This document shows positions 2,349 through 23,169 of a stretch of 23,242 nt of DNA, piece by piece. The DNA is from a virus, in the IMG/VR virus record IMGVR_UViG_3300037245_000726, positions 1 to 23,242 of that record, one strand, 5' to 3'. The translations under genes and the position numbers were made by a program. Under the pieces are notes generated by a model. That model was given only the letters and a program-made list of their open reading frames with translations, did not search any database and was not told the DNA's origin. How positions within the stretch are numbered: position 1 is the first letter of the stretch; every line of letters begins with the position of its first letter.

Positions 2349-4019
2349 ATGAAAAAGTTTTTTATAATATTAATAATGACCTCGGTTTCATGTGTTATTG
2401 CGGGCACTAATGTTGAACGGATTGGGTACAATTTCCCCATCCAGATCCCTGACGGGGTGGCGGTTATATCGATAATCTCTGATGATCCGATACTGACTGC
2501 CCACTCTGTTTTGTATCAAGAGTGTAAGAAGCGAGGTATTCCTATAACTCTATCTACACCATCAATGATTTCAAGCTTAAGTCCAATCCAGCTATATCAC
2601 GCAACACCATTGCAATTAGCCGAAATGTTATGTAAAGGTGGGTCCACTTACGCATACCACTCAACATCACACTGGCAATGGCAAGGGCACAGTGATGATC
2701 CCTGGTTTACAAGGGAAGTTGCGGAGGGGCATTCATACGGAGGCAGTGGAACGGTCAGGGATTTACTTGGGCCTCCACCAGTAAACCCTGCTTATGGAAG
2801 AACGCAGACAGTAGTTGAAACACCTGGCGATGTAGTTGCTGCAATTATACAAGCATCCGGTACGGCCATTTTTGACACGTCCGATGTAGGTGCGGAATAT
2901 ATAACGGCTGACTGTTTTCATGCTCCAGGTCAATGGTATGAGGATGGAGAAGTAGAAGCCCTTGTACCTGGCTCCGAGTATTGGCAGATATTAAGAAACG
3001 AATGGGGTGAAAGTGTTGTCTTAGAGGGCGCTTCGTGGGTTCAGAGTATACCGACGAATAAGAGGCATGATCGGCAGACGATCGGTAGTTATAGCAACTC
3101 AAGCCAGTTAGTCAATGCTTTAGATGGCGTGGTCGAGGTTGGCGGTGCTGCTCATTACTTCGCTCATGAGTGGTTGGCAGTAGGTGAAACAGGTGGCACT
3201 AATGAGGGTTCGGCTAGACCGGGTCAAGAGGCATATACAGATGCCATCCTTAACGCTACGCTTGTAACTTTCCTTGATGCTATTGAGGATCATGTCCAGG
3301 CAGGTAACTTGATAGTCATGGGTTCAGGTGCTATCGCAAACGCTGTAAGAGGCACTCCATTAAACTTAATAAGTAACTCTGACTTTACAATTGACCATCA
3401 CACATCAGCTTCCGGGGTTGAGGGCTGGGGAAGGGTTAGTGATAAATCGTCTACTGAAATAACAGAGCTTTATAAAGGCTCTGATTCAGGCCATGACTAT
3501 GTATTGATTAACAAAAAAACAAGAACCGTTAGGATCGGGTTTTACACCTTTGGCGAAAACATGACCGATACTGAGGCGTTCCTCATTACTGGATGGGTTA
3601 AGGTGTCGACCGGGACGACAGATCCACAGATTGTAATCTATGGAGGTGATGCGGCGGCAGTACCTACCAGAACAATAAGTTCGAGCGTAACACGAATGGT
3701 CGAGCCGGCAGATAAGTATGACGAGGACGCTGCGGGACAGGCTCCACTTGGCGGGCTTATGTCACAACCGCTATACACTTATGAGTTTGATGGCACTGAG
3801 GCACTTGCAGCGAACGGTACATGGGCATATTTCACTGTTCCGTTTTCACTACCCAAGCCTTTATGTCGATGGGCTATAATGCTCACGACAACGAACGGCG
3901 ACGATTCAGAGATATGGTTTTCAGATGTCAAGATACATCCTAATAGCGGGATAGTTCCGGCTAACCGAGGGACAACCGCAATACCTACTGGTACATATCG
4001 TGGGAGATACAACCCATAA
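2349..4019 (+). CDS. Secreted-type polysaccharide-deacetylase-like protein, 556 aa, probable tail-associated enzyme
   Basis: The frame is open from a TTG at 2319, but the ATG at 2349 is preferred: AAGGA lies 8 bases upstream and the product then begins with a signal peptide (MKKFFIILIMTSVSCVIAG). Residues about 36-280 resemble the NodB/CE4 deacetylase fold: VAVISIISDDP (44-46 SDD, motif 1), YHSTSH (104-108, the H-[ST]-x-x-H metal motif), FHAPGQW (190-196, loosely motif 3) and HYFAHEW (269-275). Residues about 340-545 are beta-rich and look like a galactose-binding or carbohydrate-binding jelly roll. The last residues are RGRYNP, a motif shared with three other proteins here. Inference: a virion or exported enzyme that trims acetyl groups from host surface polysaccharide. 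The family assignment rests on motifs, and the third motif lacks the usual Arg. Confidence 0.65.
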   Translation: MKKFFIILIMTSVSCVIAGTNVERIGYNFPIQIPDGVAVISIISDDPILTAHSVLYQECKKRGIPITLSTPSMISSLSPIQLYHATPLQLAEMLCKGGSTYAYHSTSHWQWQGHSDDPWFTREVAEGHSYGGSGTVRDLLGPPPVNPAYGRTQTVVETPGDVVAAIIQASGTAIFDTSDVGAEYITADCFHAPGQWYEDGEVEALVPGSEYWQILRNEWGESVVLEGASWVQSIPTNKRHDRQTIGSYSNSSQLVNALDGVVEVGGAAHYFAHEWLAVGETGGTNEGSARPGQEAYTDAILNATLVTFLDAIEDHVQAGNLIVMGSGAIANAVRGTPLNLISNSDFTIDHHTSASGVEGWGRVSDKSSTEITELYKGSDSGHDYVLINKKTRTVRIGFYTFGENMTDTEAFLITGWVKVSTGTTDPQIVIYGGDAAAVPTRTISSSVTRMVEPADKYDEDAAGQAPLGGLMSQPLYTYEFDGTEALAANGTWAYFTVPFSLPKPLCRWAIMLTTTNGDDSEIWFSDVKIHPNSGIVPANRGTTAIPTGTYRGRYNP

Positions 4020-7114: not shown

Positions 7115-8872
7115 ATGGCACTATGGGACGGAAAACCAGTTTACGACAGAGTTCTTGAACTGCTCGCGCAGAGGAAGAAAGCTTATGTCAAGTTCAACGC
7201 CGCCAGGGATAGCATTGTAGACTTAATGCGTCCTGATCTCGGCAGTGATACAACCCCAGACGGTGACGGCTCTTTCTTCGGCGACCAGATATACGATGGC
7301 ATCGGCTCATGGGCTGTTGGTGTTATGGCTCGTGGATTCCAGGGCGGGCTTGTAAGTGCTGACGCTGACTGGTTCTCGCATGATATGGAAGATGACCGCC
7401 TTGATGATGTCAAGGTTCTTTCCGAGTGGCAGCAAGAGATTGATAGCCACATGTCCAAGGTTTACCAAAAGAGCAATTTCTACAGAGTTCTCCCCCGCTT
7501 CACAAAGGATGGCGTATCGATCGGTTCACCTGTGATGTTTGTTGAGGAAGAGGACATACTAACCGGCGAGATTGCTTTTAAGCCCCAGCACTACAAGAAA
7601 GTATACCTGTTTTATAATGGCAATAACAAGCTTGAAGGCGTTATTATCAAGGACGATACGTGGACGATCAAGCAGATTTCCGATAAGTTCGCTCAGTCAG
7701 CAGAAGAACAGAAGGCAAAGCTTTCGACCAGCATCAACAATGAGATTGGTAACGGCAAGTATTACACAGAGAGAACGATCATCCGGGCGGTATTTAAGTC
7801 TGATAATCCCGTATGGGACGTTGAAGGGTTTAAGCGGCCCGAAGGCGATGGCGAGTGGTTAAGCGTTTACTTTGAGGAAAAGACCGAAGAGGATCGCAAG
7901 AACACACCTTTATTGACTGAACAGTATTTCAGCCGTCCGTTTGTTGTGTGGGATTACGACAAGCATGAGGATGAGTCTGTATCGAGAACCCCGGCATTCG
8001 ACGCTATCCATGATGTACTGGCACAACAGCAGGAGTCCTTAGACCTTGCCGAGAACCGGAAGTTGAAGAATAATCCTCCAATGGCCGTGCTTGAGGATCA
8101 TAGAAACATAGTAGATTTTACTCCGCAGGGCATTACGCCGATAGCAAGTGGGGACTGGAACATGTTACCCAAGGCGATCGACATGGTTGGCGACATACAA
8201 TTAACCCGCGAAAACCTTGAGTTTAACGCTGAGAAGGTTAAGCGTTGGTTCCATACCGCAGATTTTGTGAAGTTCACAGACCTGACCAATACTCTAAGAC
8301 AGCAGCCATCCGCGACACAGATAATCAAGATCGCAGCCGAGCTTGCAACACAGGTCAACCCGGGCATCGCATCCTACACAACTGGATTCCTCAAAGATGT
8401 TGATACTCGGATGATCGACATTGAAGTACGTGCAGGTCGTGGGCCGTTCCATCCGCTAAGAATGCAGGAGATTGCCGATGTTATCCGTGCTCATACAGGC
8501 GAAGAGGTCAGCAGTATCAGTGTTGTTCCGGTATTCATTGGCCAGCTTGCAAGGGCACAGAAGGTAAAAGCCGAGCTTGACCCGATCCTTGAAGGGCTTG
8601 GCGTTGGTTCTGAGATGTTCCAGATATGGCCGAACCTTAAACACGCCATAGACGAGCACGGTACGCTTCAGGACGCCTTAAAGGTTATGAACTTCCCGAT
8701 GGACAGGTTTAAGTCCAAAGACGACTACAACGAGATTGTGGAGCGCATACAGGCAGCGGAGGCAGCGGCACTGAAACAGCAACAGACACTTGAAATGTTA
8801 AAGGCTTCACCGGCGGTACAAGGCCCGGTGGATGAAACAAGTATAATGAGTCAAGTACAGGGAGCGGGATAA
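7115..8872 (+). CDS. Portal / head-to-tail connector protein
   Basis: 585 aa. Forms the dodecameric portal at one capsid vertex through which DNA enters and leaves, and on which the short tail is built. It fits the podoviral head-tail connector family (T7 gp8 type; Pfam Head-tail_con): N-terminal DRVLELLAQRKKAYVKFNAA, then GSWAVGVMARGFQGGLVSAD near residues 65-85, the DPW-like core replaced by ADWFSHDM, and a helical C-terminal half ending in a Gln/Ala-rich coiled segment (QAAEAAALKQQQTLEML). AAGGGA precedes the ATG. It overlaps the next gene by one base (TAATG). Confidence 0.9.
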   Translation: MALWDGKPVYDRVLELLAQRKKAYVKFNAARDSIVDLMRPDLGSDTTPDGDGSFFGDQIYDGIGSWAVGVMARGFQGGLVSADADWFSHDMEDDRLDDVKVLSEWQQEIDSHMSKVYQKSNFYRVLPRFTKDGVSIGSPVMFVEEEDILTGEIAFKPQHYKKVYLFYNGNNKLEGVIIKDDTWTIKQISDKFAQSAEEQKAKLSTSINNEIGNGKYYTERTIIRAVFKSDNPVWDVEGFKRPEGDGEWLSVYFEEKTEEDRKNTPLLTEQYFSRPFVVWDYDKHEDESVSRTPAFDAIHDVLAQQQESLDLAENRKLKNNPPMAVLEDHRNIVDFTPQGITPIASGDWNMLPKAIDMVGDIQLTRENLEFNAEKVKRWFHTADFVKFTDLTNTLRQQPSATQIIKIAAELATQVNPGIASYTTGFLKDVDTRMIDIEVRAGRGPFHPLRMQEIADVIRAHTGEEVSSISVVPVFIGQLARAQKVKAELDPILEGLGVGSEMFQIWPNLKHAIDEHGTLQDALKVMNFPMDRFKSKDDYNEIVERIQAAEAAALKQQQTLEMLKASPAVQGPVDETSIMSQVQGAG

Positions 8873-9688: not shown

Positions 9689-9690
9689 TC

Positions 9691-10101: not shown

Positions 10102-10106
10102 GAGTT

Positions 10107-10967: not shown

Positions 10968-10978
10968 AAACCATAAGC

Positions 10979-11106
10979 GCCCGGACTATCCGGGGACCGT
11001 TGAAAGGTTATAAATGAAAAAAACTCAGGGACTCTAACCACTGGTTGGACCTGATAGACAGCCTTGAAAGTAAGGTGACTAGCGCAGTCTGTTGCGTTAG
11101 GCGGGC
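10979..11106 (+). ncRNA. Structured RNA leader of unknown class upstream of the capsid gene
   Basis: The 198-base gap between scaffold and capsid holds a run of hairpins: CCCGGA/TCCGGG with a CTA loop (10980-10994), AACC/GGTT (11036-11046), CCTT/AAGG (11062-11075) and an 8-pair stem CTAGCGCA/TGCGTTAG with one G-U (11079-11100). GCCCG (10979-10983) could instead pair with CGGGC (11102-11106), enclosing the others and competing with the first hairpin. No U-tract follows, so these are not simple terminators. I could not match it to a tRNA, group I intron, hammerhead or known riboswitch. It may be a translation or processing control element for capsid expression. Confidence 0.4.
11014..11037 (+). 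CDS. Possible 7-codon leader peptide in the capsid leader
   Basis: ATG 11014 follows GAAAGG with a suitable spacer and encodes MKKTQGL then a stop. It lies between the first hairpin and the remaining hairpins of the capsid leader, a layout like leader peptides whose translation alters downstream RNA folding. It is very short and may be chance. Confidence 0.18.
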   Translation: MKKTQGL

Positions 11107-11165
11107 CCAGAAATGGACACCTCTCCGACAATTAAAAATATTAATTTAATTACGGAGTATTAATC

Positions 11166-12176
11166 ATGGCTCAAAAAGATTTAGGTTCAAGATACAATCT
11201 TATCGATTGTCTCAAGAACGTACAGGACAATAAGTTTGTCCCGTGGGCAGAAACGCTCACAGAAGACAGTCCGTTCCTGTTCGACCTTCAGATTGAAAGT
11301 GCAACAGGCATTTTATCGAATGAAGGATCAAGGGAAGTATCGCTTCCAACACCGCAGATTATTAAAGTCGGCGATGGTCACGATTCCAGTACGGTTCGAT
11401 GGGACACGTTCACAGAGAACATTAGTATCTTCAAGGATAGAGTAGCGATCCCCGAAGATGTTTATGACCTCAAACCGGACAAGATTGCTTATCGTGCAAA
11501 GATCGTTGATCGCCACATGGCAGGTTTCGGCCAGGGCGTGACAAACCATTTCTTCTATGGCACGTCTGTTGCAACGCCTGAGAAGTTTGACGGCCTGGAT
11601 GTTAGGTATTCGATACCTGACGCCACCGATCCGACAAACCCATCGAGTGCAAGTGCTGATCCGTTTGTATTCGATGCCGGTGGTATTGGTTCAAACACGA
11701 TGTCTGTATGGATGATCCAGCAGGAAATGGATAAGTTTTCGGGTATTGCCCCGATCAATGATCCGCAGATGGGTATTGACAAGCAGGACATGGGCAGGGT
11801 CTATGCTGACGCAGAAAACTCTAAGGAACGTCTTGAGTACCGGACGGAACTGAAATGGAAAATCGGCTTGAACATCGCCGACCAGCGTGCGGTTGCTCGT
11901 ATTCGCAACATTCAAGCCAGCGTAGCAGAGCTTGACGCAAGCTTCTTACAGCTTATCTTCCAGGCGGAAGAAGAAGTCTTTAAGGGTTCTGGGCAGATTT
12001 TTGCTTATGTTCCAAAACGCATGATGACATTCCTGAAGATTATGGCAGAAGCCAAGCAGAATGTTATTTATGACACAAACAACATTTATGGTATTCCGCT
12101 GCATCGTATCGGCAATATTCTTCTCAGGTCTGAAGACGCGCTGAACATCACGGAAGCTGCCGTAGCTGCTGTCTAA
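11166..12176 (+). CDS. Major capsid protein
   Basis: 336 aa, the expected size for an HK97-fold coat protein. The start MAQKDLGSRYNLIDCLKN follows a CGGAG site. An early segment (WAETLTEDSPFLFDLQ) and a late one (QDMGRVYADAENSKERLEYR then LKWKIGLNIADQRAVARIRN) match the major capsid pattern of BPP-1-type podoviruses, in which a 'Y-T-x-x-x-W-x-x-G-L-x-x-x-D-x-R-x-V-x-R-I-x-N' stretch is typical. The final domain (SGQIFAYVPKRMMTFLKIMA) also fits. It follows the scaffold and precedes the cement gene. The family assignment is from memory of the motif. Confidence 0.85.
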   Translation: MAQKDLGSRYNLIDCLKNVQDNKFVPWAETLTEDSPFLFDLQIESATGILSNEGSREVSLPTPQIIKVGDGHDSSTVRWDTFTENISIFKDRVAIPEDVYDLKPDKIAYRAKIVDRHMAGFGQGVTNHFFYGTSVATPEKFDGLDVRYSIPDATDPTNPSSASADPFVFDAGGIGSNTMSVWMIQQEMDKFSGIAPINDPQMGIDKQDMGRVYADAENSKERLEYRTELKWKIGLNIADQRAVARIRNIQASVAELDASFLQLIFQAEEEVFKGSGQIFAYVPKRMMTFLKIMAEAKQNVIYDTNNIYGIPLHRIGNILLRSEDALNITEAAVAAV

Positions 12177-12207
12177 TCAAACATAATTCCAATGAAAGGG
12201 TACTCTT

Positions 12208-12702
12208 ATGGGTGCACATGAAAATTTAGGCGTCTTGAGTGACGCCCAGGCAATTGCGGCGGATGATACCGCATCAACGAATACAATTGATTTGAGACAG
12301 ACCTCTCCGAAAATCGGTGTTGGTCAGCATTCTCCTTATCTTTGTATTCGTACTGCGGTAGCCCCAACTGCTGTAAGTAACGATACATTGTCTATCGAAC
12401 TTCAGTCTGATGCTGATGATGGTTCTGGCGATCCTGCTGGCACTTGGACTCACGTAGTATTCATGCCGTTAGTTGGTGTTAATGGCGCCGAGGTCAATCA
12501 AAGCGATGCGAGACTCGCTACTGCTGGTGCTTGGATAAATCGTATCCAGCTTCCGTATGACCTCAAGAATCCTCATATCCGGCTGATGTATAGGAATACT
12601 ACCTCTGTTGGTGTATTCACGATCGACGCATGGCTTGAAGATGTTCCGGCATCCGATTTCCGCGGTGGGCAAGTATTGTTCAGCAATGTTGGCAATCCGT
12701 AA
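12208..12702 (+). CDS. Capsid cement/decoration protein (Bbp16-like)
   Basis: 164 aa directly after the capsid gene, with GAAAGGG upstream. It follows the pattern of the BPP-1 cement protein Bbp16 family: an N-terminal arm (NLGVLSDAQAIAADDTASTN then TIDL), a jelly-roll-like middle (DTLSIELQSDADDGSG; GTWTHVVFMPLVG) and RIQLPYDLKNPHIRLMYRNT near the end. Such proteins bridge capsid subunits and stabilise the full head. It has no signal peptide, in contrast to the four genes that follow. Confidence 0.75.
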   Translation: MGAHENLGVLSDAQAIAADDTASTNTIDLRQTSPKIGVGQHSPYLCIRTAVAPTAVSNDTLSIELQSDADDGSGDPAGTWTHVVFMPLVGVNGAEVNQSDARLATAGAWINRIQLPYDLKNPHIRLMYRNTTSVGVFTIDAWLEDVPASDFRGGQVLFSNVGNP

Positions 12703-12753: not shown

Positions 12754-13755
12754 ATGAAAAAGTTTATCATATTAATCATGCTCTTATGTGCTGTCACGGC
12801 GTATTCCTATACTGCCGACGATTACATAAGGGGTCGAACTTATTTCGGTTCGGGCACCAAGACGCTTGACCCGATGTATCTGCACATGGTCGATGCGGCT
12901 AACGGTTTTGGCCAGCTCGGTACTGGAAAAGTGTTCTACGTTGACAGCGGTGTTACTACTGAAGGCGATGGTACTTCGTGGACGCGAGCCAGAGACACTA
13001 TTGACGAAGCTATTGGGCTTTGTACTGCAAGCCGTGGGGACGTAATTTATGTCGCACAGGGACATGCCGAAACCGTGGCAAGCGCCACAGGTCTTCTATG
13101 TGATGTCGCGGGCATATCTATCATCGGTATCGGAAACGGTAGCTTGATACCTACGATTTCGCTTGGAACCGCTGACACTGCTAAAATCTCTGTCACGGCG
13201 GCTAATGTCCGGTTAAGTAACCTAAAGATTGTGTCGGCACTGGCGGACGTAGCTGAAGGCATTGACCCCACTGCGGACGCTGATGGGCTTGTGGTTGACA
13301 ACTGCATCTTTACAGATGGAGGTGCAGCCTTAGAGCTCGTTATTGCGATTAATGTTACAGCCGATTGCGACAACATACGCTTGATCAACAACAGGTTTAA
13401 TTCAACCGCCGCAAGCGATACGACTAATGCTATCGTTCTTGCTGGTGGTTCGGACAACTCGGTCATTTCTGGTAATACGATCTATGGAACGTACACAGCG
13501 GGGGGCGTTCTCGCATCTGCCGCGGCGTCTATAAATCTGACTGTTACTGACAATGTAATCGGTGCTATCGATGCTATTGGCTGGGACAGCCACGCTTCTA
13601 CTACAGGCGTATTTGCAAGGAACTTGATTGGTGCGAATACAACGTCTATAGCGGCGGCACTTACTGGATTGGACGCTATGTTCTGCTGGGAGAACTATGT
13701 CACAGGTGCTCTTAATGCCAGTGGTATTATTATCCCTGCGATTGATGCAGACTAA
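12754..13755 (+). CDS. Signal-peptide-bearing right-handed beta-helix protein, 333 aa
   Basis: AAGGAG precedes ATG 12754. The N-terminus MKKFIILIMLLCAVTAYS is a classic signal peptide (KK, hydrophobic core, A-Y-S cleavage site). Residues about 59-100 carry the pectate-lyase-like opening FYVDSGVTTEGDGTSWTRAR then AIGLC...GDVIYVAQG, typical of phage and bacterial beta-helix proteins. Residues 115-300 have repeated strand-turn units (ISIIGIGNGS; NVRLSNLKIV; DGLVVDNCIF; IRLINNRF; SVISGNTIYG), about one coil every 20-25 residues. No catalytic set is evident. Its place beside the capsid suggests a head or surface fibre, or an exported protein; both are inference. Confidence 0.8.
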   Translation: MKKFIILIMLLCAVTAYSYTADDYIRGRTYFGSGTKTLDPMYLHMVDAANGFGQLGTGKVFYVDSGVTTEGDGTSWTRARDTIDEAIGLCTASRGDVIYVAQGHAETVASATGLLCDVAGISIIGIGNGSLIPTISLGTADTAKISVTAANVRLSNLKIVSALADVAEGIDPTADADGLVVDNCIFTDGGAALELVIAINVTADCDNIRLINNRFNSTAASDTTNAIVLAGGSDNSVISGNTIYGTYTAGGVLASAAASINLTVTDNVIGAIDAIGWDSHASTTGVFARNLIGANTTSIAAALTGLDAMFCWENYVTGALNASGIIIPAIDAD

Positions 13756-13760
13756 AAAAA

Positions 13761-13791
13761 GGAGGTGGGTTCGCGCTCACCTCCATCTTTT
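13761..13791. terminator. Strong terminator, possibly bidirectional
   Basis: GGAGGTGGG (13761-13769) pairs with CTCACCTCC (13776-13784) in 9 pairs (one G-U) around a TTCGCG loop, followed by ATCTTTT and preceded by seven A. The A and T tracts on opposite sides allow termination on either strand. The 5' arm also reads AAGGAGGTG, a perfect anti-Shine-Dalgarno complement with no start codon at working distance. Confidence 0.8.
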
Positions 13792-13805
13792 CAAGGAGTA
13801 AAGCA

Positions 13806-14135
13806 ATGAAAAAGTTATTAGTGATTATAATACTGGTATGCATGGTTGTTATACCCGTTCTTTATGCCAGCGTGGGCGGCAAGATGGACGCTTTGAACAC
13901 CTCTCACGAGCAGACCGCTAAGGCTATTCAGGCCAGAGCTTTATTGCAGGGAGCAAGGGCCTACCTCCGGCAAGTCAACTTGCAGGTTAAAGAAATCGCT
14001 GACAGTGGGACTTTTGAGACACTTGACCCCAGCATAAAACAGGCGTTGAACTCGGCATGGATTATCACGAAACAAGCCGAAGCCGCATTGGATGCAAACG
14101 AGGAAGTAACCGAACTACTTGATTGGCGGAAATAA
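13806..14135 (+). CDS. Signal-peptide- or membrane-anchor-bearing helical protein, 109 aa
   Basis: AAGGAG precedes ATG 13806. The N-terminus MKKLLVIIILVCMVVIPVLYA is a long hydrophobic stretch that may be a cleaved signal peptide (Y-A-S) or an uncleaved anchor. The remainder is predicted alpha-helical (AKAIQARALLQGARAYLRQV; AWIITKQAEAALDANEEVTE), soluble and without cysteine. Its stop shares a base with the next ATG (TAATG). The layout, membrane segment plus helical domain, is compatible with an envelope-facing small phage protein such as a spanin-like or virion-anchoring peptide, but no family is recognised. Confidence 0.7.
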   Translation: MKKLLVIIILVCMVVIPVLYASVGGKMDALNTSHEQTAKAIQARALLQGARAYLRQVNLQVKEIADSGTFETLDPSIKQALNSAWIITKQAEAALDANEEVTELLDWRK

Positions 14136-15343
14136 TGAGATATTCATTTATCTTTTTGGCTCTTTGTGGAGCCGTTTTTGCAACTATCCCAACGTTAGAG
14201 GCTGACGCTGGCGCAACCACTCTGCGGATAACGGATGGAACTTCCCTTGACCCTGTTACATGGAATGATGTCTGGGCTTTTGGTGCTGGTGGCGGTGCGG
14301 GGCTTGTACCCCTTGACGGCGGCGGCACAGCAAGAGTTGACACCTTTATAACCGAGATTATCGCTGATGCGATGTATCTTATCTTAAAGGATATTGATTT
14401 TGGCGACGGCAGTACATCGACATACTTTACAAGCTTAAATGAGCAGCTTTATTTTGTAGATGACGCTTTGCCATTTATCGCTGCAAATGCTAGATTTGAT
14501 ATGGGTGAAGCCCTTGGCGATTGGAGTAAGAATGGTTCTTGCATGTCAATAGGCATTACGGGTGGGGCTGGACATAGTATATCAACCTCAGCTAGTGCTG
14601 TTTTTGCTACTTACGGTTCTATGATAATTCGCAGAAATGCTTCTAATTATTCGACACTTGCTCTGTCCGGTGGGACTTGGATAGCTCGAAATTTTACTTA
14701 TATTGGTTTTGGTTTGGACTACATACATCTTTCGACGGGTACGGTTGATTGGGACACTGTTACAATATTAGATCCTTTTATATTCCAAATGTCTCTTACG
14801 CCGACAAATTTTAATAATATTCATGTTCATGGGGCATATACTGGGCTTTTCTCGTATCAGCCTATCACGGCAACAAATATGTTGATAACAGATGCATCGA
14901 TAGAAGTACAAATGAATGTCGCTGGTAACTTAATTCTAAAAAACCCACGTTTTAATATTAACGGTTCTAAAGTAACTATCACAAACGCTAGTGGCAATAT
15001 TATTGAACAATACACTTGCAACATTCACGTCAATGATAAAGATGGCGTAGACCTTGAAGGCGCTAGTGTGTTATGCGAAGACGAGGCCGATGCGGAAGTG
15101 TTTAGTGTTTCCACAGATGTCAATGGGGATATTGCCGAACAGTTAATCAACTATAAGCAGTGGGTAGGCACAGACGAAACACTGACAGACTTTAGTCCGC
15201 ATGTGTTCACAATATCAAAAGCAGACCTTGTGACACTGGTGATTGACGCTGTAACTGTTGACGACCCAATATCCTTCCTGTATGAGCAATTACTAGAGTC
15301 TGCAAGCGGGGGCGGAGGCATTAGATCAAGGTATAATCCATAA
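14135..15343 (+). CDS. Signal-peptide-bearing beta-rich surface protein with C-terminal RYNP motif, 402 aa
   Basis: The frame is open from TTG 14123, but ATG 14135 is chosen because it overlaps the previous stop (TAATG) and begins directly with a signal peptide (MRYSFIFLALCGAVFATIP). Residues about 90-300 are beta-strand rich with repeated Ser/Thr/Asn turns, like a beta-helix or beta-solenoid. Residues about 305-375 (DGVDLEGASVLCEDE... then STDVNGDIAEQ) resemble the carboxypeptidase-regulatory-like beta-sandwich found in phage surface proteins. The extreme C-terminus is GGGGIRSRYNP, a flexible Gly stretch ahead of the shared motif. Likely a displayed or exported structural protein; no enzymatic site is seen. 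Confidence 0.75.
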   Translation: MRYSFIFLALCGAVFATIPTLEADAGATTLRITDGTSLDPVTWNDVWAFGAGGGAGLVPLDGGGTARVDTFITEIIADAMYLILKDIDFGDGSTSTYFTSLNEQLYFVDDALPFIAANARFDMGEALGDWSKNGSCMSIGITGGAGHSISTSASAVFATYGSMIIRRNASNYSTLALSGGTWIARNFTYIGFGLDYIHLSTGTVDWDTVTILDPFIFQMSLTPTNFNNIHVHGAYTGLFSYQPITATNMLITDASIEVQMNVAGNLILKNPRFNINGSKVTITNASGNIIEQYTCNIHVNDKDGVDLEGASVLCEDEADAEVFSVSTDVNGDIAEQLINYKQWVGTDETLTDFSPHVFTISKADLVTLVIDAVTVDDPISFLYEQLLESASGGGGIRSRYNP

Positions 15344-15389
15344 TAAAACCGTGTTGTGAAAAATAAACTGAATTTTAAGGAGCAAAAGC

Positions 15390-16253
15390 ATGAAAAAATT
15401 AATTACACCAGCAATAGTATTATTACTGGTTGTGTGCGGCGCATCATTAACCCACGTAAGCCAGATAATCGGTAATGCGTTACATACGGTGCAGAACGCT
15501 TGGATTATTGCCGAGACCGAGACTTCAGCATCGACACAGACAGACGCACTTGGAGTAACCGAGCGAACCAAGAAGATAGTTGACGCTTTGATTTTAGCGA
15601 ATGCGAACGAAGAGGCTCAAATATCTATCCGGGCGATCCCTCCTCACTGGAACGCTATAAGGGCAAGGGCTATCGGCATCACTGACGCTGGTACTGTAAC
15701 GCACCAGATATACTTAGGTACGCTTGGCGGTGAGCTTGATTGCGAATTGTCTCACTCCGCTCAGTTAGCTTGGGTTATTGGTACTCAGCAAAGCATCTAT
15801 GAGCAGATAACCTTTACGCTTGGCGGCGCTGGGACTGCATACGTCCCTCAGATCGGCGACACTGTTACTGGCAATACAAGCGGAGAAACTGCGGTCATCG
15901 TTTCTATATCAGACTTGTCTTCTGGGGCATGGGCAGATGGAGACGCCGCGGGTACGATTACATATAGATCGCCATCCGGGTTATTCACTGCCGCAGAGAC
16001 AGTTTCGATATTAAGAGCCAATAGGGTTATAACCAGCGACGCATTGAAACACGCGAACTCTGTGTTTGTTGAATTTGAGTTAGCCGATACACTGGTTATT
16101 ACTGCGGGTGCATGGGGTTCTACATGGACCACTACTTCGCCCGCCGACAATACCAACGCAGAGGCAGAGGTAGATGTCAAAGGGGCTGATTTTATGGTTA
16201 TCGTAACATCAGCGACTTCGGTTGATAGCAAGTTACTCATTAGAGGATTCTAA
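15390..16253 (+). CDS. Signal-peptide-bearing phage structural-module protein, 287 aa
   Basis: AAGGAG precedes ATG 15390. The N-terminus MKKLITPAIVLLLVVCGAS is a signal peptide. Residues about 15-70 are helical. Residues about 150-200 (GDTVTGNTSGETAVIVSISD then WADGDAAGTITYRS) match a small beta module seen in many phage structural proteins, with the pattern 'GDTVTGxTSGxTAxVV...W..GDAAGT'. The C-terminal part is beta-rich and ends LLIRGF. It is the last of four consecutive signal-peptide genes and ends two bases before the gp11-like gene. Role unknown; a virion surface or exported protein is likely. Confidence 0.72.
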   Translation: MKKLITPAIVLLLVVCGASLTHVSQIIGNALHTVQNAWIIAETETSASTQTDALGVTERTKKIVDALILANANEEAQISIRAIPPHWNAIRARAIGITDAGTVTHQIYLGTLGGELDCELSHSAQLAWVIGTQQSIYEQITFTLGGAGTAYVPQIGDTVTGNTSGETAVIVSISDLSSGAWADGDAAGTITYRSPSGLFTAAETVSILRANRVITSDALKHANSVFVEFELADTLVITAGAWGSTWTTTSPADNTNAEAEVDVKGADFMVIVTSATSVDSKLLIRGF

Positions 16254-16255
16254 TT

Positions 16256-17251
16256 ATGGCTTCTGATTTAGCAGGCATTGCCAATAATGCAGGTGGCAGG
16301 ATAGGCGGGTTTGGCGACCAGTTAAGCGCAAGCGGGCAGATTACAGCTTCACAACTGACCGCTAACGCTGATCCGGTGAGCCAATGGATTAACGAGAAAT
16401 ACCCTATTATCCGGCGTAAGGTTATTGCTGACTTTGCTGGGATGAAAGCTCCTTTCAAGGAAACTCGTAAATTCGCAAGCCTTGGCCCTGATTTAAAGCA
16501 AAGCGATGTTGCGATTACGTCGATAACCTCCGTTGCTACTGTTGTCACCGTGACCACAAAGACGGCTCACGGCAGGATCACGGGCGATACGGGCTTTCTT
16601 GCAGAGATTGAGGGGGTTGACGTTGAAGGACAGCTAATAACTTCCCTAAACGGCACAACTCCGACTATCACAGTGCTTACCACAACCACCTTCACCCTGG
16701 ACGGTGTGGCGGGCGTTGACGCGACATGGGACTACACCGCTGATACAGGGATTATTAGTTATGTCCCTGAAATCGGTGCATGGAATTACGCCTTTAAGCT
16801 GCCGAGTGACTACTTTGCTGCTGTCAGGCAAACCGACGAATCACTGGCAACTACTGGCGGCGTTAAGACTAAATACCAGTTCAAGGCCATTCTGAATCGT
16901 GACGGTGACGGGTTCCTATGGCTCACCAACGATCTTACAAACAACGACGGCGACAGTGCTTATATTGAGTATTGCATCGACCAAACAACGTTTACGCTGT
17001 TTAGCCCGGGCCTTGAAGAATCTATTGCGATGCTTTTAGCTGCTGAACTATGCCCGAATCTTGGCAGGAACCTTGAAACAAGACAACAGTTGCTTTTAGA
17101 ATACAAGCAGTTGACCGTCAAAGAAGCAAAACGGAACAACCAAAGCCAGCTTGACACCACGGCTCATGTGCCGAGTAATTATCTCGGTGGCAGAACAAAA
17201 AGAATATCAGGCATATCAAGTACAACGAGGAGAAGTTCATGCAGAGATTAG
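16256..17251 (+). CDS. Tail tubular protein A / head-tail adaptor (T7 gp11-like) with inserted beta domain
   Basis: 331 aa. In T7-like phages this protein forms the ring between portal and tail nozzle. N-terminal part (about 1-82) contains GRIGGFGDQLSA and SQWINEKYPIIRRKVIADF, the helical start of the family; the later part has YAFKLPSDYFAAVRQ and, near the C-terminus, LEESIAMLLAAELCPNL, also typical. Residues about 86-155 (ITSITSVATVVTVTTKTAHG ... TTFTLDGVAG) look like an inserted beta domain of the FCCH-like type ('V-T-x-x-x-H-G...G-D...V...LNG...TFTLDGV'), which accounts for the length above T7 gp11 (196 aa). It has no signal peptide. Its end overlaps the next gene by 13 bases. Confidence 0.82.
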   Translation: MASDLAGIANNAGGRIGGFGDQLSASGQITASQLTANADPVSQWINEKYPIIRRKVIADFAGMKAPFKETRKFASLGPDLKQSDVAITSITSVATVVTVTTKTAHGRITGDTGFLAEIEGVDVEGQLITSLNGTTPTITVLTTTTFTLDGVAGVDATWDYTADTGIISYVPEIGAWNYAFKLPSDYFAAVRQTDESLATTGGVKTKYQFKAILNRDGDGFLWLTNDLTNNDGDSAYIEYCIDQTTFTLFSPGLEESIAMLLAAELCPNLGRNLETRQQLLLEYKQLTVKEAKRNNQSQLDTTAHVPSNYLGGRTKRISGISSTTRRSSCRD

Positions 17252-20200
17252 TGGTAAAATTATTACTAATAATTCTATGCTCAAGCTGTTTAGCGGTTAG
17301 CCCGACGGTAAAATCGTTTAACACAGGTCAAGTGTCGCCACTCATGGAAACAAGGACGGATTTTCAGAAGTATCAGTCGTCAAACAGGACGGTTGAAAAC
17401 ATGCTCGTCACGGTTCATGGCCCGGCACAGCGAAGACCCGGTACGAAGTTTATCGCCGAGACTAAAGACAGTAGCAGTGTATCAAGATTAATACCCTTTG
17501 AAGCCTCGACAGATGATGCTTACCCGATTGAGTTGGGCAATATCTACGCCAGATTCTACAGGGCAGGCGGGCAGGTGCTTACTTCAGGCGGCACAGAAGA
17601 TTTAACCGCTTTGGACAACATTATAGCACATTGGCTCATAAACGATAACGCCGCAAATACGCAAGTGCTTGACGATGACGGGGCTACTCATAACGGCGTA
17701 GCGAGCATTAACACAGACGTTATACATGAAGACGGTAAGGTTGGTACTGGAAGTTTCGACCTTGCCGCACAGTACGCAGTTTCAGTAGCAGACAGCGCAG
17801 ACTTTACTTTTGTTGAGGGCGTTGATGGAGATTTCAGCCTCACGGGATGGGTGTATATAAAAGACACCGAAACAGAACAGGTCATAATCTCAAAGTGGGA
17901 CGAAACCGCCGGAAGCACTGCAAGGGAATGGAAGCTTTTATTGGACGAAGACCTTAAACTAAAAATGGTACTCGCTGACGAGAGTTTGTTTTTAGATCAA
18001 GACTTAGTTGCTCAATGGAAAATGAATGACAGTCTTGCCACTGATGTTGTTTTAGACGCTCTTGCTGCTAATAATGGGGCGTTGACGGATGGAGGGGATA
18101 ACTTCACCTCAGACCATAGCGTACCAGGGATAACAAACAATGCCCTTAGCTTTGATGGTACTAACGACATTGTTACGGTTCCAGATGCGGCCGCATTCTC
18201 GTTCTCTTCTGGCGGAGGCACTGACACAGCGTTTTCGATAAGCGCATGGGTAAACATGACCGACGCTACCAGTTTTGCTATTATAAATAAGCGGGTCAAT
18301 AGTGTGTCACAAGGCGAATGGATGCTCACTACTGGAGCGGACGACAAGCTCTATTTTAATTGCACGTTGGACGATTACACTAACAGGATTGGACGTGGGT
18401 ACAACACGGCGTTAGGCGAAGGGTCATGGATACACGTAGTAGCCACCTACGACGCTACAAAAGCATCGTCTGGGATAATCCTATATGTCAATGGGTCTGC
18501 TGTCGATGATATTGACGACAATGCAGGTTCGTACACGGGCATGGTTGCTGGAAGTTCTGATGTCAGAATTGGAAGGGACGTTACAACTGGATATTCAGAG
18601 GGAAAGATTGACAACGTAATTATTTTCAATAAGAAATTATCCTCTGGCGATGTCACCCTTTTATACAACGGCGGTGCAGGCACGGAGAGTTTGGATAATG
18701 GGTCTATCTCGGCATTGTCCGATGATGCACTAACCGCAGGATGGCGATATGTTGCGATGACTTATAACGGCCAAAACAACGGCGGTGCTGCTGCGGCAGA
18801 TGACATGATATTATACGTGGACAGCGTTGTAGTCTCTTCTACGGCAACTAATCTGTCAACCTACTCGAAAATGGAGGACACTGCTGCTGTAGTTAGAATA
18901 GGCTCACAGGAATCTTCGGCAGGGGCAATCGAAAAGATATGGGCAGAGAGATTGGACGAGTTTGCCGTATTCGGCGATGTTTTGACGCCAACGGAAGTAG
19001 CATCTTTGTTCTCAGATACCTCAATATACGAAATAATAACACCTTTTAGCTCAGAAGAAATATCCGAAATACAATACGCACAGAGCGATGACGCAATGTA
19101 TATCGTAAACGGCACGGATGTCCCACAGGTCTTAATAAGAATAGAGCATGACGAGTGGACTATTGCCGACGGTGTTTTCGAGACAGGCCCATTCCAAACT
19201 GAAAATACAGATTTATCTTTAACAATAACACCATCAGCGACTACAGGGAGCGTTACACTCACCGCGAGCAGTCTTCTTTTTGAAGTTGGTCATGTTGGGT
19301 CTATCTGGGAGATAAGCCAGCCACGAGACACTTCGGTTTTCACTGGTTCTGTGACTGACGGGGCTTTGACGGGCGCGAGCACGGCTTTCTTTAATGGGGG
19401 CTACAGCTTTACCACTGACGGAACATGGGACGCGACGGTAACACTCCAAAGAAGCACAGATGTTGGCGTTACGTGGGAAAACGCATTATCACCGCTTAAT
19501 TCTACAAATTTCGACAATCCTGCCGAGACCGAAGAGACAGGGGCTATTTATAGGGTATTAATGAGCGATTGGGTTTCTGGGACTGCAAACTGGACTTTCA
19601 TTATATCAGATTCTTTGAACCGCGGCATAGTTAGAATAACAGGCTTCACCTCCTCGACCGTTACTACTGCAACCGTAATCACTGATTTAGCGAATACGGA
19701 CGCGACAAGCAAGTGGCGGGAGGGTTATTGGTCTGACTTTAGGGGCTGGCCTAAAACAATAGCCTTTCACCAGCAGCGATTAGTGTTTGGAGGGTCACGT
19801 TCCTTCCCGCAAGTCCTTTGGTTTGGCAAACAAGACCCGGACGATTACACAAACTTCAATGAAGGCACACTTGATACCTCGTCGTTCACAGCCGCCCTGG
19901 AAGGCCAAAACCCTATTCGGTGGTTATTGAGCCAAGAATACCTAACTATCGGCTCTAGCGGCTCGTGTGGCTTGTGGGGCGAGCGTGGCGTGAATGTTAC
20001 GCCAACAAGCCCAGCCTACCAAGACCAGACTTCTCACGGATCAGCGTCTATCAGCGCAGTAATGGGCGGCGATTCGATTATCTACATTGAGCGTGGGGCA
20101 AGGAACGCCAGAGAGTTATCGTTTAGTCTTCAGGTTGACAAGTATCTCTCGCCGAATTTAAGCGTTTTATCGCCGGAAATCACCGAAAGCGGGATGAAAG

Positions 20201-21006
20201 AGATCGCTTTTCAGCTTCGTCCTTCGCCGATTTTATGGTGCGTCTTAAATAATGGAGATATGGCAACGCTCACTTATCAGAGCGATCAGGCTGTTGTTGC
20301 ATGGTCAAAGCAGGTCACGGATGGAAACTTTGAAAGCGTAACCTCAGTTCCAAGCATCACCGGGTCAGAAGACGAGGTGTGGGTTATTGTACAAAGGACT
20401 TTCTCAGGCGTTAATTCCGGCAACCCCGTAAGATATGTCGAGCAGTTCCAGCCGAGGGATTGGGGTACTGATGACAATGACGCATGGTTCCTCGATTCAG
20501 CTTTATCTTACAACAGCACGCCCCAGACCTCATTTACCGGATTAGGTCACTTAGAGGGTGAAACAATGTCTATCTACGCGGACAGGCTTATCGAGAACCC
20601 GGAAATAGTCGTAAGTGGTTCAATAACGATCGACAACGCGGCATCGAGAGTGTTGGCTGGATTACCGTTTACATCAAAGCTTGAAACCTTCCCGATAGTT
20701 ATCGACCCACAGGACGCCGCTTTCAATAAGAAAATCAAATTTGTTTGGGCTGACCTGTTTGAATCTGGCGCGTTGGAATATGGTGGCTCTTCTGCCGCGA
20801 CTTTGATGACTGTCAACTTTGAAAACAGTTTGATAAACAACCCCGCCGCGACTGCACAAGACCTTTACACTTCGGCGGTATCACAGAAAAAGCTTATGTG
20901 GTTCTTTGGATCGCTAAAGAAACAAACGATATACTTGGAAACATCAGAGCCAATGCCCTTAACTGTACGCGGATTGACGCCTGATTACGACTTGACGGGA
21001 AACTAA
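17239..21006 (+). CDS. Tail tubular protein B-like tail protein with signal peptide and nested LamG domains, 1255 aa
   Basis: AGGAG precedes ATG 17239. The first 19-20 residues (MQRLVVKLLLIILCSSCLA) form a signal peptide. They are followed at once by the family start SFNTGQVSPLMETRTDFQKY and RRPGTKFIAETK. No ATG, GTG or TTG occurs between codon 5 and this conserved start, so the leader must be translated with it. Residues 127-591 are a LamG domain interrupted by another LamG domain. The tail protein then resumes at YEIITPFSSEEISEIQYAQS and runs through RGWPKTIAFHQQRLVFGGSR, typical of the family. Without residues 127-591 the protein is 790 aa, close to T7 gp12 (794). It forms the tail nozzle in T7; here it also displays lectin-like domains that may bind host glycans. 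Confidence 0.87.
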   Translation: MQRLVVKLLLIILCSSCLAVSPTVKSFNTGQVSPLMETRTDFQKYQSSNRTVENMLVTVHGPAQRRPGTKFIAETKDSSSVSRLIPFEASTDDAYPIELGNIYARFYRAGGQVLTSGGTEDLTALDNIIAHWLINDNAANTQVLDDDGATHNGVASINTDVIHEDGKVGTGSFDLAAQYAVSVADSADFTFVEGVDGDFSLTGWVYIKDTETEQVIISKWDETAGSTAREWKLLLDEDLKLKMVLADESLFLDQDLVAQWKMNDSLATDVVLDALAANNGALTDGGDNFTSDHSVPGITNNALSFDGTNDIVTVPDAAAFSFSSGGGTDTAFSISAWVNMTDATSFAIINKRVNSVSQGEWMLTTGADDKLYFNCTLDDYTNRIGRGYNTALGEGSWIHVVATYDATKASSGIILYVNGSAVDDIDDNAGSYTGMVAGSSDVRIGRDVTTGYSEGKIDNVIIFNKKLSSGDVTLLYNGGAGTESLDNGSISALSDDALTAGWRYVAMTYNGQNNGGAAAADDMILYVDSVVVSSTATNLSTYSKMEDTAAVVRIGSQESSAGAIEKIWAERLDEFAVFGDVLTPTEVASLFSDTSIYEIITPFSSEEISEIQYAQSDDAMYIVNGTDVPQVLIRIEHDEWTIADGVFETGPFQTENTDLSLTITPSATTGSVTLTASSLLFEVGHVGSIWEISQPRDTSVFTGSVTDGALTGASTAFFNGGYSFTTDGTWDATVTLQRSTDVGVTWENALSPLNSTNFDNPAETEETGAIYRVLMSDWVSGTANWTFIISDSLNRGIVRITGFTSSTVTTATVITDLANTDATSKWREGYWSDFRGWPKTIAFHQQRLVFGGSRSFPQVLWFGKQDPDDYTNFNEGTLDTSSFTAALEGQNPIRWLLSQEYLTIGSSGSCGLWGERGVNVTPTSPAYQDQTSHGSASISAVMGGDSIIYIERGARNARELSFSLQVDKYLSPNLSVLSPEITESGMKEIAFQLRPSPILWCVLNNGDMATLTYQSDQAVVAWSKQVTDGNFESVTSVPSITGSEDEVWVIVQRTFSGVNSGNPVRYVEQFQPRDWGTDDNDAWFLDSALSYNSTPQTSFTGLGHLEGETMSIYADRLIENPEIVVSGSITIDNAASRVLAGLPFTSKLETFPIVIDPQDAAFNKKIKFVWADLFESGALEYGGSSAATLMTVNFENSLINNPAATAQDLYTSAVSQKKLMWFFGSLKKQTIYLETSEPMPLTVRGLTPDYDLTGN
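17617..19011 (+). other. Outer LamG (concanavalin A-like) domain split in two, within the tail protein
   Basis: Residues 127-249 (from DNIIAHWLINDN to KLKMVLADES) give the first half of a LamG jelly roll: W at the start, GKVGTGSFDL, VSVADSADF, FSLTGWVYIKD, IISKWDETAG. Residues 486-591 give the second half: AGWRYVAMTYNGQ, DDMILYVDSVVV, VVRIGSQES, RLDEFAVFGDVLTPTEVASL. Together they make about 229 residues, the normal size for one domain. It sits between GGQVLTSGG and YEIITPF of the tail protein, at a loop where related proteins have no insert. Confidence 0.8.
17986..18693 (+). other. Inner complete LamG domain inserted into the outer LamG
   Basis: Residues 250-485 hold a full LamG pattern in order: DLVAQWKMNDS, NNALSFDGTNDIVTVPDAA, FSISAWVNMTD, IINKRVNS, GSWIHVVATYDATK, GIILYVNGSAVDD, VRIGRDVTTG, KIDNVIIFNKKLSSGDVTLL. 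It is bounded on both sides by the two halves of the outer domain, so the insertion is within a strand-to-strand loop. Confidence 0.82.
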
Positions 21007-21453
21007 GTGATAGAGATTAGAAAAATCCAAGATGGCGATTTAGAGCAAATTCTTGCCGATCCGTTTCAGGACTCCCTTAAGAAGTACCCTGAACTAAATG
21101 AGGATCAAAAGAGAATTGTCAATGAAACATCTTTCGCTGGCGTGCAAGATGGCGAACTACTTGGCATTGGTGGAGTTGTTGACAGGGGAGATGGCATCGG
21201 CGAGGCGTGGCTGATGTTGGTTAAAGATATTGGCAAGAGCGGGGCAAGCGGACTCATGGCTTTTCATGCGATACGTAAAAAGCTTGACGAGCTTTGCGAA
21301 CCGTTCGATAAATGCCAAGCACTTATAAGGGACGATTTCCCGAAAGCTCAGGCAATGATTAAGGCTTTAGGGTTTGAGTTTGTTGAAACTTTTATTGAAA
21401 GATCGCCTGACGGCGTAGATATGCACTTATTCTTGAAAGTGTCCGATGAATAG
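21007..21453 (+). CDS. T7 gp13-like protein with acetyltransferase (GNAT-like) fold, 148 aa
   Basis: GTG start two bases after the tail gene stops (residues MIEIRKIQDGDLEQILADPF). Strand and helix order, the opening EIRKIQDGDLEQIL and LIRDDFPKAQAMIKALGFEF near the end follow the GNAT layout of small phage proteins related to T7 gp13 (138 aa). T7 gp13 is needed for internal core assembly and is not a proven enzyme. The acetyl-CoA P-loop is degenerate (KDIGKSGASGLMAFH), so activity is doubtful. It sits between the gp12-like and gp14-like genes, exactly as in T7. Confidence 0.78.
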   Translation: MIEIRKIQDGDLEQILADPFQDSLKKYPELNEDQKRIVNETSFAGVQDGELLGIGGVVDRGDGIGEAWLMLVKDIGKSGASGLMAFHAIRKKLDELCEPFDKCQALIRDDFPKAQAMIKALGFEFVETFIERSPDGVDMHLFLKVSDE

Positions 21454-22120
21454 ATATAACCGATACAATAGAGAAATACCGGAAGATTGTCGTGTTGTCG
21501 AACATAATGGTCATGCGTTCATTATAGGCACTACTCCTGAAACTATGCGGCGAAGATACGACCCCTTAACGATCGCGTTAGGCGCCGCCGCAGCCGGAAC
21601 AGCATTACAGGTTGCCAGTACGCTCAAAGAGGGCAAGCAGGCCGAGAAGCTGGCAGAACAACGCGCCGCTATCGACCTTCAAAACGCCGACCAGGTTAGA
21701 AAACAAGCTGTCGAGGCCGCAAGGATTGAAGCCGATAAAGGCAGGAAGGCACTAGCTACCGCTAAGTCAACCGCCGCCGCTTCAGGGATCAGGATAAACA
21801 TAGGTTCCCCGCTGGTTATCGATACCGAGATAAGAAACAATATTGCTAAAGAAACTGGCTTCATTCTTGAAAGAGGTCGTGCGCATGAATTAAGCTTCAG
21901 GGATTCTGCGGCTATAAATATCGCACAAGGCAAAAACATAAGACGTAATTCTAAAACAAGTGCTATCGCACAAGGCTTATTTGGGGCCAGTTCGATTGCC
22001 TTTATGGGCATGCAAAGCGGGGCTTTTACTGGCGGGACAACCCCGGTCGCCTCACCTTCAGGCCCATCGTCTTTAAATAATCTTAACACAGGTGGCGGCT
22101 CTAGGAGATTTACAGCATGA
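21446..22120 (+). CDS. T7 gp14-like internal virion protein, 224 aa
   Basis: Overlaps the gp13-like gene by 8 bases. After a polar N-terminal stretch (MNRYNRYNREIPEDCR...) comes MRRRYDPLTIALGAAAAGTA, a short Pro followed by a hydrophobic Ala/Gly-rich helix, as in gp14-type proteins ('C-D-P-x-T-...AAAAGTA'). Residues about 55-115 are a long Ala/Glu/Lys-rich coiled coil (KQAEKLAEQRAAIDLQNADQ). A Gly/Ser/Pro-rich tail ends the protein. gp14-type proteins are ejected into the host and line the conduit through the outer membrane. The N-terminal R-x-R-Y-D-P motif replaces the usual Cys-Asp-Pro. Confidence 0.72.
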   Translation: MNRYNRYNREIPEDCRVVEHNGHAFIIGTTPETMRRRYDPLTIALGAAAAGTALQVASTLKEGKQAEKLAEQRAAIDLQNADQVRKQAVEAARIEADKGRKALATAKSTAAASGIRINIGSPLVIDTEIRNNIAKETGFILERGRAHELSFRDSAAINIAQGKNIRRNSKTSAIAQGLFGASSIAFMGMQSGAFTGGTTPVASPSGPSSLNNLNTGGGSRRFTA

Positions 22121-23169
22121 AAAAACTAATATTGATTCTATTTATGATAATGCTCTGTAATGACTGTTTTGGGTATAGATTCAGGTATAACCCTCTTTGG
22201 ACAAGAAGTAACGGCACGTTGTCACCAGCGAACCCCAGCGACAGTCTTTCGATAGGTGGGGATTTTTCCTTGCTCAACGGAAAAGATTTAAGATTTTATG
22301 ACGTTGGCAACTCAAATTACGTGGGATTCAAAGCGCCTGCCCTTACCGCTAACCAGATATGGACACTTCCGATTGCCGATGGCGATCCAGGTGCAGTATT
22401 AACAACAGATGGTGCGGGAATTACAATCTGGACCGATAACGCTTCCGAAAAGACATGGGCGTTTATGAGCCGGGACGCTTCCAGTGGAACAAACTACATT
22501 GGCGGCTTCTATAAATTTGGCGCAACTGACAACGATTTTAATCCAGCGGCCACACATGGCACGGCTAACGTGGCATACGCCGCCCACTTCTTCTTAGTGC
22601 AAGCGGCGGGTGCAAGTGGCGGAACCGATACGGTGATTAGGATAACTGGGACAACTATTGACGATCAGGGAAACCGAGCAACGGCAGTTGATGTTGATTT
22701 AACAGTTGACGACGCTGGTGCGGCTGGAACGTACTACGAGACGACTCAAAAATGGCTTGGTCAAGTAACAATAACAAAGATTTCCGGCCCTGACCTTTTG
22801 TGCAACTTTGGGTTCTGCAAGTATTGGGACAATAACAATACAGATTTCAAGGTGGCTGGAATTGAGGCTACTTGGCTTGGTGCAAAGAATGACGCTAATC
22901 CCGACATTCATTTACATCACCATAAAACTACAGGCTGGACTTACAACGCAGGCGCAGAGCCTACCACACCGCCGGAGATTGCAACCATGAACGGCGACCA
23001 TGTCACAGAGATACAAATCGCCACCGACCAGGAAGGCGCGTGGAAGCGTGACAATCTAGGCACGGACATCATGGGTAGTGCGGGCGAGGGAACTATAATC
23101 GAGCTAACCACAACTACTAACAGAACATACGCAATAGGCAATTTCCTTGTAAGGATAACGCCACAATAA
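22117..23169 (+). CDS. Signal-peptide-bearing tail-fibre-like protein, 350 aa
   Basis: ATG overlaps the previous stop (ATGA) with AGGAG upstream. Signal peptide MKKLILILFMIMLCNDCFG is followed directly by YRFRYNPLWTRSNG, so cleavage would expose the RYNP motif as the mature N-terminus. Residues about 60-110 (LRFYDVGNSNYVGFKAPALT then WTLPIADGDPGAVLTTDGAG) match the repeat-like stem found in many phage tail-fibre and head-fibre proteins. The C-terminal half is beta-rich, with His-rich HLHHHK near residue 268 and a final TYAIGNFLVRITPQ. A fibre or receptor-contacting role is inferred. Confidence 0.75.
   Translation: MKKLILILFMIMLCNDCFGYRFRYNPLWTRSNGTLSPANPSDSLSIGGDFSLLNGKDLRFYDVGNSNYVGFKAPALTANQIWTLPIADGDPGAVLTTDGAGITIWTDNASEKTWAFMSRDASSGTNYIGGFYKFGATDNDFNPAATHGTANVAYAAHFFLVQAAGASGGTDTVIRITGTTIDDQGNRATAVDVDLTVDDAGAAGTYYETTQKWLGQVTITKISGPDLLCNFGFCKYWDNNNTDFKVAGIEATWLGAKNDANPDIHLHHHKTTGWTYNAGAEPTTPPEIATMNGDHVTEIQIATDQEGAWKRDNLGTDIMGSAGEGTIIELTTTTNRTYAIGNFLVRITPQ

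Follow-up and report, generated by a model that had tools for sequence, protein, structure and literature searches.

Putative Sec signal peptides mark the external tail proteins of a podovirus clade and may direct them out of the cytoplasm

In the textbook view, tailed phages finish their virions in the cytoplasm, and we wondered why several genes of the viral record IMGVR_UViG_3300037245_000726, among them the gene of the gp12-like tail nozzle, begin with what look like secretory leaders. The window, that is, the whole 23,242-base record (G000), is a fragment of an epsilon15/BPP-1-type podovirus, and an original prediction made from its letters had proposed Sec leaders on seven of its genes. 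Across the clade of related phages, we find such leaders on the nozzle, the fibers and spikes, and the decoration-like proteins and, one doubtful call apart, on no head or internal protein. We lean, if narrowly, toward the reading that the external tail module is exported by the Sec pathway and cleaved, and that heads and tails would be united during or after lysis, or at the membrane.

The gene on which the question turns is the only leader-bearing gene of the window whose structural role is assigned by strong homology:

17239..21006, plus strand: tail nozzle (gp12-like), with leader MQRLVVKLLLIILCSSCLA (residues 1-19) followed by VSPTVKSF and the conserved nozzle from about residue 20; signal peptide score 5.04

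It matches phrog_376 (E=1.8e-163) from residue 20 onward, and a profile built from five nozzles of the clade aligns with the solved Tail Nozzle 8ck1_A over the whole nozzle sequence (E=4.8e-109); an AlphaFold2 model from the same number of sequences had a predicted local distance difference test score (pLDDT) of 32. The leader was scored with a home-made, rule-based caller (not SignalP) calibrated on Escherichia coli K-12 proteins: it recovered 29 of 30 annotated exported proteins, and its false calls were 2 of 97 cytosolic proteins, both scoring ≤3.95. As originally predicted, the leader is not an annotation error, because only codon 1 (ATG) and codon 5 (GTG) can start translation ahead of the conserved N-terminus and both yield a leader; in three related phages (L015, L037, and L047), there are no alternative start codons at all ahead of the conserved nozzle domain.

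Is the leader a peculiarity of this one phage? Searches of IMG/VR and of contigs from bacterial genomes, for which the nozzle and the protein encoded at 15390 (described below) served as queries, brought together 14 further phages. A leader precedes the conserved (S/N)FxxGQ nozzle N-terminus in 15 of 15 of these phages (14 of 15 by rule), counts that are not independent, as the phages are related; the nozzle of L044 fails the strict rule by a Glu, and its leader reads MKKILFVSVLLFFTEGLLA by eye. In contrast, there was no leader call on any of the 85+ more distant nozzles, which came from 80 IMG/VR loci, epsilon15, BPP-1, BcepC6B, HTVC010P, a Vibrio phage, a groundwater phage, a predicted methanogen virus, and Planctomycetota prophages; their readable starts lie 7-12 residues before the motif. 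In the nozzle tree, 13 of 14 leader-bearing rows form one clade with a support of 100 in the Shimodaira-Hasegawa-like approximate likelihood ratio test (SH-aLRT), and the 14th, an odd long branch from L041, is placed apart and is uninformative.

The nozzle of L041 is split at residue ~100-104 and encoded in separate genes. Reference residues 1-104 are covered by gene 9938-10279 and residues 100-760 by gene 10279-12351, and the gene upstream of them, 7344-9941, repeats the N-terminal domain and contains a long insert. Each of the three consecutive nozzle genes (7344-12351) has its own signal peptide. The second of the split leaders is what a requirement for export predicts, because a fragment severed from its original leader would stay in the cytoplasm. 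The window nozzle, for its part, has in the alignment an extra insert of ~480 amino acids at residues ~115-596, which looks LamG-like by eye, is without a Pfam match, and adjoins the split point of the L041 nozzle, marking an insertion hot spot.

Among the clade nozzles, mean identity is 37% in the leader versus 66% in the next 60 nozzle residues. When seven real leaders were left to drift neutrally in simulations, the caller still recognized 5-13% of them after that much divergence, and 1-3% with a score of at least 4.3; the diverged leaders are selectively maintained as signal peptides. Their basic n-region, hydrophobic core, and small residues at −3 and −1 identify them as predicted Sec signal peptides of the signal peptidase I type, with Ala at −1 in 52 of 72 cleavage sites, Ala or Val at −3 in 45, and Phe at −2 in 23, of which the −1 and −3 counts are partly imposed by the caller's own rule. 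None of the 14 nozzle leaders tested has a lipobox (Cys at +1), and among 61 leader genes the only one is that of a small non-tail lipoprotein of L015; a twin-arginine (Tat) motif is present in none of the 61. No phage-encoded signal peptidase (PF10502) was found in eight phage records, and therefore the signal peptidase of the host would be used.

What the predicted cut would leave behind bears on whether the leaders are removed at all. Cleavage would place the nozzle N-terminus 6-10 residues before the SF motif, and leaderless homologues have their Met at 7-12. Moreover, Lys or Arg occurs between the mature N-terminus and the motif in 3 of 16 leader-bearing nozzles versus 43 of 52 distinct leaderless ones (Fisher P of 5e-6, which is optimistic because the nozzles are related). 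One could instead imagine uncleaved tethers, that is, N-terminal helices that anchor the nozzle and fibers in the inner membrane, where assembly would proceed without periplasmic transfer. Membrane-associated morphogenesis is known in other phages, and a few leaders, such as that of the gene at 13806, are long and lack a clear c-region. However, most leaders have short cores (median leader length, 18 residues) and good signal peptidase I sites, and a tether needs neither the canonical nozzle length after cleavage nor the depletion of Lys and Arg, so we consider this alternative unlikely. The original prediction had offered both possibilities. Of these, the tether loses ground, since the cut predicted for signal peptidase I would return the nozzle to its canonical N-terminus; the hypothesis that fits best is the first, in which tail parts would wait across the inner membrane until their addition during lysis.

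We then turned to the question of which virion parts bear leaders. Among the external proteins of the clade, leaders were called on 14 of 15 nozzles, 8 of 9 fibers (with a conserved N-terminal domain and a variable distal part), 9 of 10 decoration-like proteins, 5 of 6 members of the family of the window's 12754 protein, all six members of the 15390 family, and three of three distal spikes (phrog_4636, 9.5e-21). On the other side stand terminase (0/7), portal (0/7), scaffold (0/11), capsid (0/11), Bbp16 (0/4), adaptor (0/14), the gp13-like protein (0/8), two internal proteins (0/11 and 0/6), and the gp14-like protein (1/12), which together make one doubtful call in 91. The dividing line is the border between the gp11-like adaptor and the nozzle: outer and distal parts have a predicted leader, and inner or head-bound parts do not. 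Against solved T7-type fibers, the N-terminal domain of the clade fibers gave no profile match. Leaders on fiber-like proteins also occur in a second lineage (G008 and L018), which has a related terminase and no nozzle of this family; the contigs L172, L173, L017, and L018 of this lineage, with its different tail, hold many virion-module genes with signal peptides, including one with a tail-fiber match.

This distribution also bears on two further explanations. In the first, the hydrophobic N-terminus would serve the finished virion by entering the host membrane during DNA ejection, in the manner of the hydrophobic loops of the phi29 tail knob, and its location on the tube protein of the tail tip would suit such a role. 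Nevertheless, the same type of leader is found on fibers and decoration-like proteins, the n-region charge and the cleavage sites are features of signal peptides, and other nozzles of the family manage without it, which makes an ejection device highly improbable. In the second, the proteins would be exported for a job outside the virion (receptor masking, superinfection exclusion, a secreted depolymerase, or a decoy), and only part of the protein would end up in virions. Single leader-bearing fibers or structural proteins in BcepC6B and PBR31 are compatible with this idea, as are spike- or depolymerase-like proteins of the clade such as gene 1010 of L003 (PF12708, 1e-6). Yet the nozzle is a core part of the virion, a second copy without leader did not turn up in the clade contigs that were searched, and some phages lack any downstream start able to give a leaderless form. 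We therefore regard a job outside the virion as quite unlikely, somewhat more so than the tether.

The partition can be followed gene by gene in the window, where the order is that of epsilon15/BPP-1/BcepC6B podoviruses and homologous portal, capsid (GP7), Bbp16, gp11-like, gp12-like, and gp14-like proteins are all present. The parts on the head side are as follows:

starts 4034 and 4941: terminase
7115..8872, plus strand: portal (PF12236, 3e-40), without leader
start 10107: scaffold-like protein
11166..12176, plus strand: major capsid protein (PF20911, 1.7e-47), without leader
12208..12702, plus strand: Bbp16-like capsid protein (PF21190, 1.2e-9), without leader
16256..17251, plus strand: gp11-like adaptor (phrog_394, 5.3e-12), without leader
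21007..22120, plus strand: gp13-like (start 21007) and gp14-like (start 21446) internal virion proteins (phrog_308/4177 and phrog_418), without leader

With terminase, portal, and capsid present, a filamentous phage is ruled out. Besides the nozzle, six genes open with a leader or a leader-like N-terminus (hydrophobicity maxima are Kyte-Doolittle values over 10 residues; SD, Shine-Dalgarno site):

2349..4019, plus strand: 538-amino-acid protein upstream of the terminase, without confident assignment; signal peptide MKKFFIILIMTSVSCVIA, score 5.21, SD TAAGGA
12754..13755, plus strand: right-handed beta-helix protein, spike- or decoration-like (PF13229, 1.3e-6; weak tail-spike PHROG); signal peptide MKKFIILIMLLCAVTA, score 6.1, SD TAAGGAG
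13806..14135, plus strand: 109-amino-acid protein with a leader or anchor; long hydrophobic N-terminus MKKLLVIIILVCMVVIPVLYA, maximum 3.88, SD AAGGAG, outside the rule limits
14135..15343, plus strand: 386-amino-acid protein without confident assignment, its start overlapping the 13806 stop; signal peptide MRYSFIFLALCGAVFA, score 4.7, no SD
15390..16253, plus strand: virion-module protein, conserved in the clade, without confident assignment; signal peptide MKKLITPAIVLLLVVCGA, score 5.49, SD TAAGGAG
22117..23169, plus strand: 331-amino-acid protein, possible distal tail part, without confident assignment; leader-like N-terminus MKKLILILFMIMLCNDCFG, maximum 3.53, SD AGGAG, failing the strict rule through an Asp in the c-region

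A basic n-region and a hydrophobic core are indeed present at the N-terminus of all seven genes named in the original prediction, where they form the most hydrophobic 10-residue stretch of each protein (best windows, 2.75-3.88); among the other 16 genes, N-terminal hydrophobicity is ≤1.19 in 15 and 2.09 in the exception. The caller was positive for five of the seven (2349, 12754, 14135, 15390, and 17239; scores, 4.7-6.1), and 13806, whose hydrophobic run is unusually long, and 22117 resemble leaders by eye. The claim that most leaders directly follow a strong Shine-Dalgarno site also stands, with 14135 as the exception among the seven. Where the original prediction spoke of multiple phage structural proteins, strong homology assigns the nozzle alone to a virion part; the 12754 product is a beta-helix protein with a weak spike match, and the remaining five are without confident assignment.

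Random N-termini drawn from the codon usage of the window score ≥4.5 in 0.15% of cases, so that 5 of 23 genes would be called by chance with P ~2e-10. Mis-called starts or chance hydrophobic N-termini might account for 13806 or 22117 singly, and nothing speaks for them in the nozzle, for which this explanation is refuted by the lack of alternative starts in several phages, the conservation across 15 phages, the drift simulation, and the chance estimate; as an account of the whole pattern, we give it hardly any credence.

Several of these genes can be followed beyond the window. The 12754 protein has relatives in five other phages, four of which have leaders. The 15390 protein, whose family lies in the virion module of related phages, also occurs with its signal peptide in the second lineage (L017 and L018); an AlphaFold2 model of this family, from an alignment of shallow depth, had a pLDDT of 50. 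The phages that have weak mid-domain relatives of 15390 (L019, L024, L028, L030, L031, and the L025 contig) contain at most one signal-peptide gene each. The 2349 and 12754 leaders are near-identical in DNA over ~27 bases (ATGAAAAAGTTT..ATATTAAT.ATG), which suggests that a leader cassette may have been copied between genes.

How, then, might such a virion be put together? In the reading that we prefer, the leaders would be working Sec signal peptides cut by host signal peptidase I, and the nozzle, fibers or spikes, and decoration-like proteins would be sent across the inner membrane, while the packaging proteins, capsid, portal, gp11-like adaptor, and ejection proteins would be kept in the cytoplasm. 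This would give two half-products, adaptor-capped, DNA-filled heads inside and nozzle plus fibers outside, whose joining at the adaptor-nozzle interface would follow the opening of the inner membrane during lysis or occur at the membrane itself. What the sequences show is that the leaders are present, conserved, and maintained by selection, that they have cleavage sites, and that leader-bearing and leaderless parts are divided as described. The sequences thereby give export good support; export and cleavage in the cell, and the place where head and tail meet, are what we infer. As for the more far-reaching proposal that the lineage builds its virion in two compartments, with a complete external tail secreted through host Sec, processed, and assembled outside and joined to DNA-filled heads once the membrane barrier has been broken or crossed, we see the chances as evenly balanced. 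One may speculate that export keeps the tail from the packaged head until lysis, avoids cytoplasmic tail sensors, or coats the cell surface.

Several points weigh against export and late joining. All of the evidence is derived from sequence, and to the relatedness of the phages and the share of the −1 and −3 counts that stems from our own rule must be added that a packaged head would still have to reach an exported tail on the other side of a membrane. Finally, the nozzles predicted to be exported are not enriched in cysteine and thus display no visible periplasmic advantage; disulfide-driven export was rejected, as mature nozzles contain 1-11 cysteines with no consistent number or pairing, and no more than leaderless ones.

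Some clues to the host are at hand. Two lysis genes hint at a diderm bacterium: one has a weak Rz-like spanin match (phrog_739, 0.0018), and the other is an SLT-like candidate that narrowly misses the Pfam cut-off. A whole clade phage contig of 44.7 kb (L035/L048/L049, JAQTMR010000018.1) is binned in a Phycisphaerae metagenome-assembled genome (MAG), and a 3-kb piece of another clade phage (L036, JAQTNX010000189.1) in a Bipolaricaulis MAG. The two bins disagree and may be mis-binned; these species genomes thus hold phage contigs of doubtful assignment. A Planctomycetota host was not upheld, given that the 44.7-kb contig is without recognizable host genes, that the prophage nozzles of this phylum have no leader where the start is readable, and that DNA matches in 298 genomes of the class are mostly to phage tRNA-Met.

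How far does this arrangement depart from known systems? Phages of the epsilon15/BPP-1/BcepC6B type (Uetakevirus, Rauchvirus, and Ryyoungvirus) likewise have the order portal-scaffold-capsid-Bbp16-(decoration)-gp11-gp12-gp13-gp14-internal proteins, and their portal, capsid, Bbp16, adaptor, and nozzle are homologous to those of the window, but their nozzles lack the leader and start from a plain Met that lies 7-10 residues ahead of the SF motif. The leaderless nozzle shared by the known epsilon15/BPP-1-type members, which is not in the formal definition of the family, is thus not found here. The solved nozzle 8ck1 matches in full length (profile positions 23-761), with the match beginning after the leader, which has no counterpart in the alignment. 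The closest cultured nozzles, at about 35-38% identity, are those of Pelagibacter HTVC010P-type podophages, which differ in having no leader and in starts like MARVAVELTNF. Outside the clade, we found no nozzle leader in known relatives, and the open-access literature searched contains no report of a tailed-phage nozzle leader or of a systematic partition.

Signal peptides on virion proteins as such are not wholly without precedent, and here the original prediction, which held up in its real starts, its leaders in gp12-like homologues, and the cleavable Sec appearance of the outer tail proteins, has to be qualified. It had known of no described podovirus with this arrangement, which stands for the nozzle leader and the systematic split. 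However, a signal peptide is present on one cultured podovirus tail-fiber or structural protein each in BcepC6B (gp19, annotated as tail fiber) and Xanthomonas phage PBR31 (orf035); in these phages, it is confined to a single distal protein, and the nozzle, portal, and other fiber of BcepC6B have none. Both genes (NC_005887 20959-22032, L085; MT119766 24674-25483, L090:2932-3741) adjoin lysis genes. The predicted Methanomicrobiales virus vir555, whose virion is of this type as well, has signal peptides on several distal tail genes (L081:25132-25644 and 38140-43157) and none on its nozzle. SAR/Sec endolysins and spanins of tailed phages also use host Sec, but they are lysis proteins and not virion parts. 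Filamentous phages (Inoviridae) make virion proteins as Sec-dependent precursors, e.g., G3p of M13 (PMC8310372), but they are extruded through the envelope without lysis and have no tailed-phage head, portal, or capsid packaging.

A clade with Sec signals on the tail exterior and nowhere else in the virion would break the rule of cytoplasmic assembly and predicts which parts are made where. It also calls for caution in annotation pipelines: absent signal peptides have been used as a mark of phage-origin proteins (PMC6199706), and signal peptides on spikes or nozzles should not be taken as evidence of host genes or wrong starts. Taken together, the new part is the nozzle leader with the systematic split between adaptor and nozzle, an assembly logic that is possibly quite new, while single fibers with signal peptides already exist in cultured phages.

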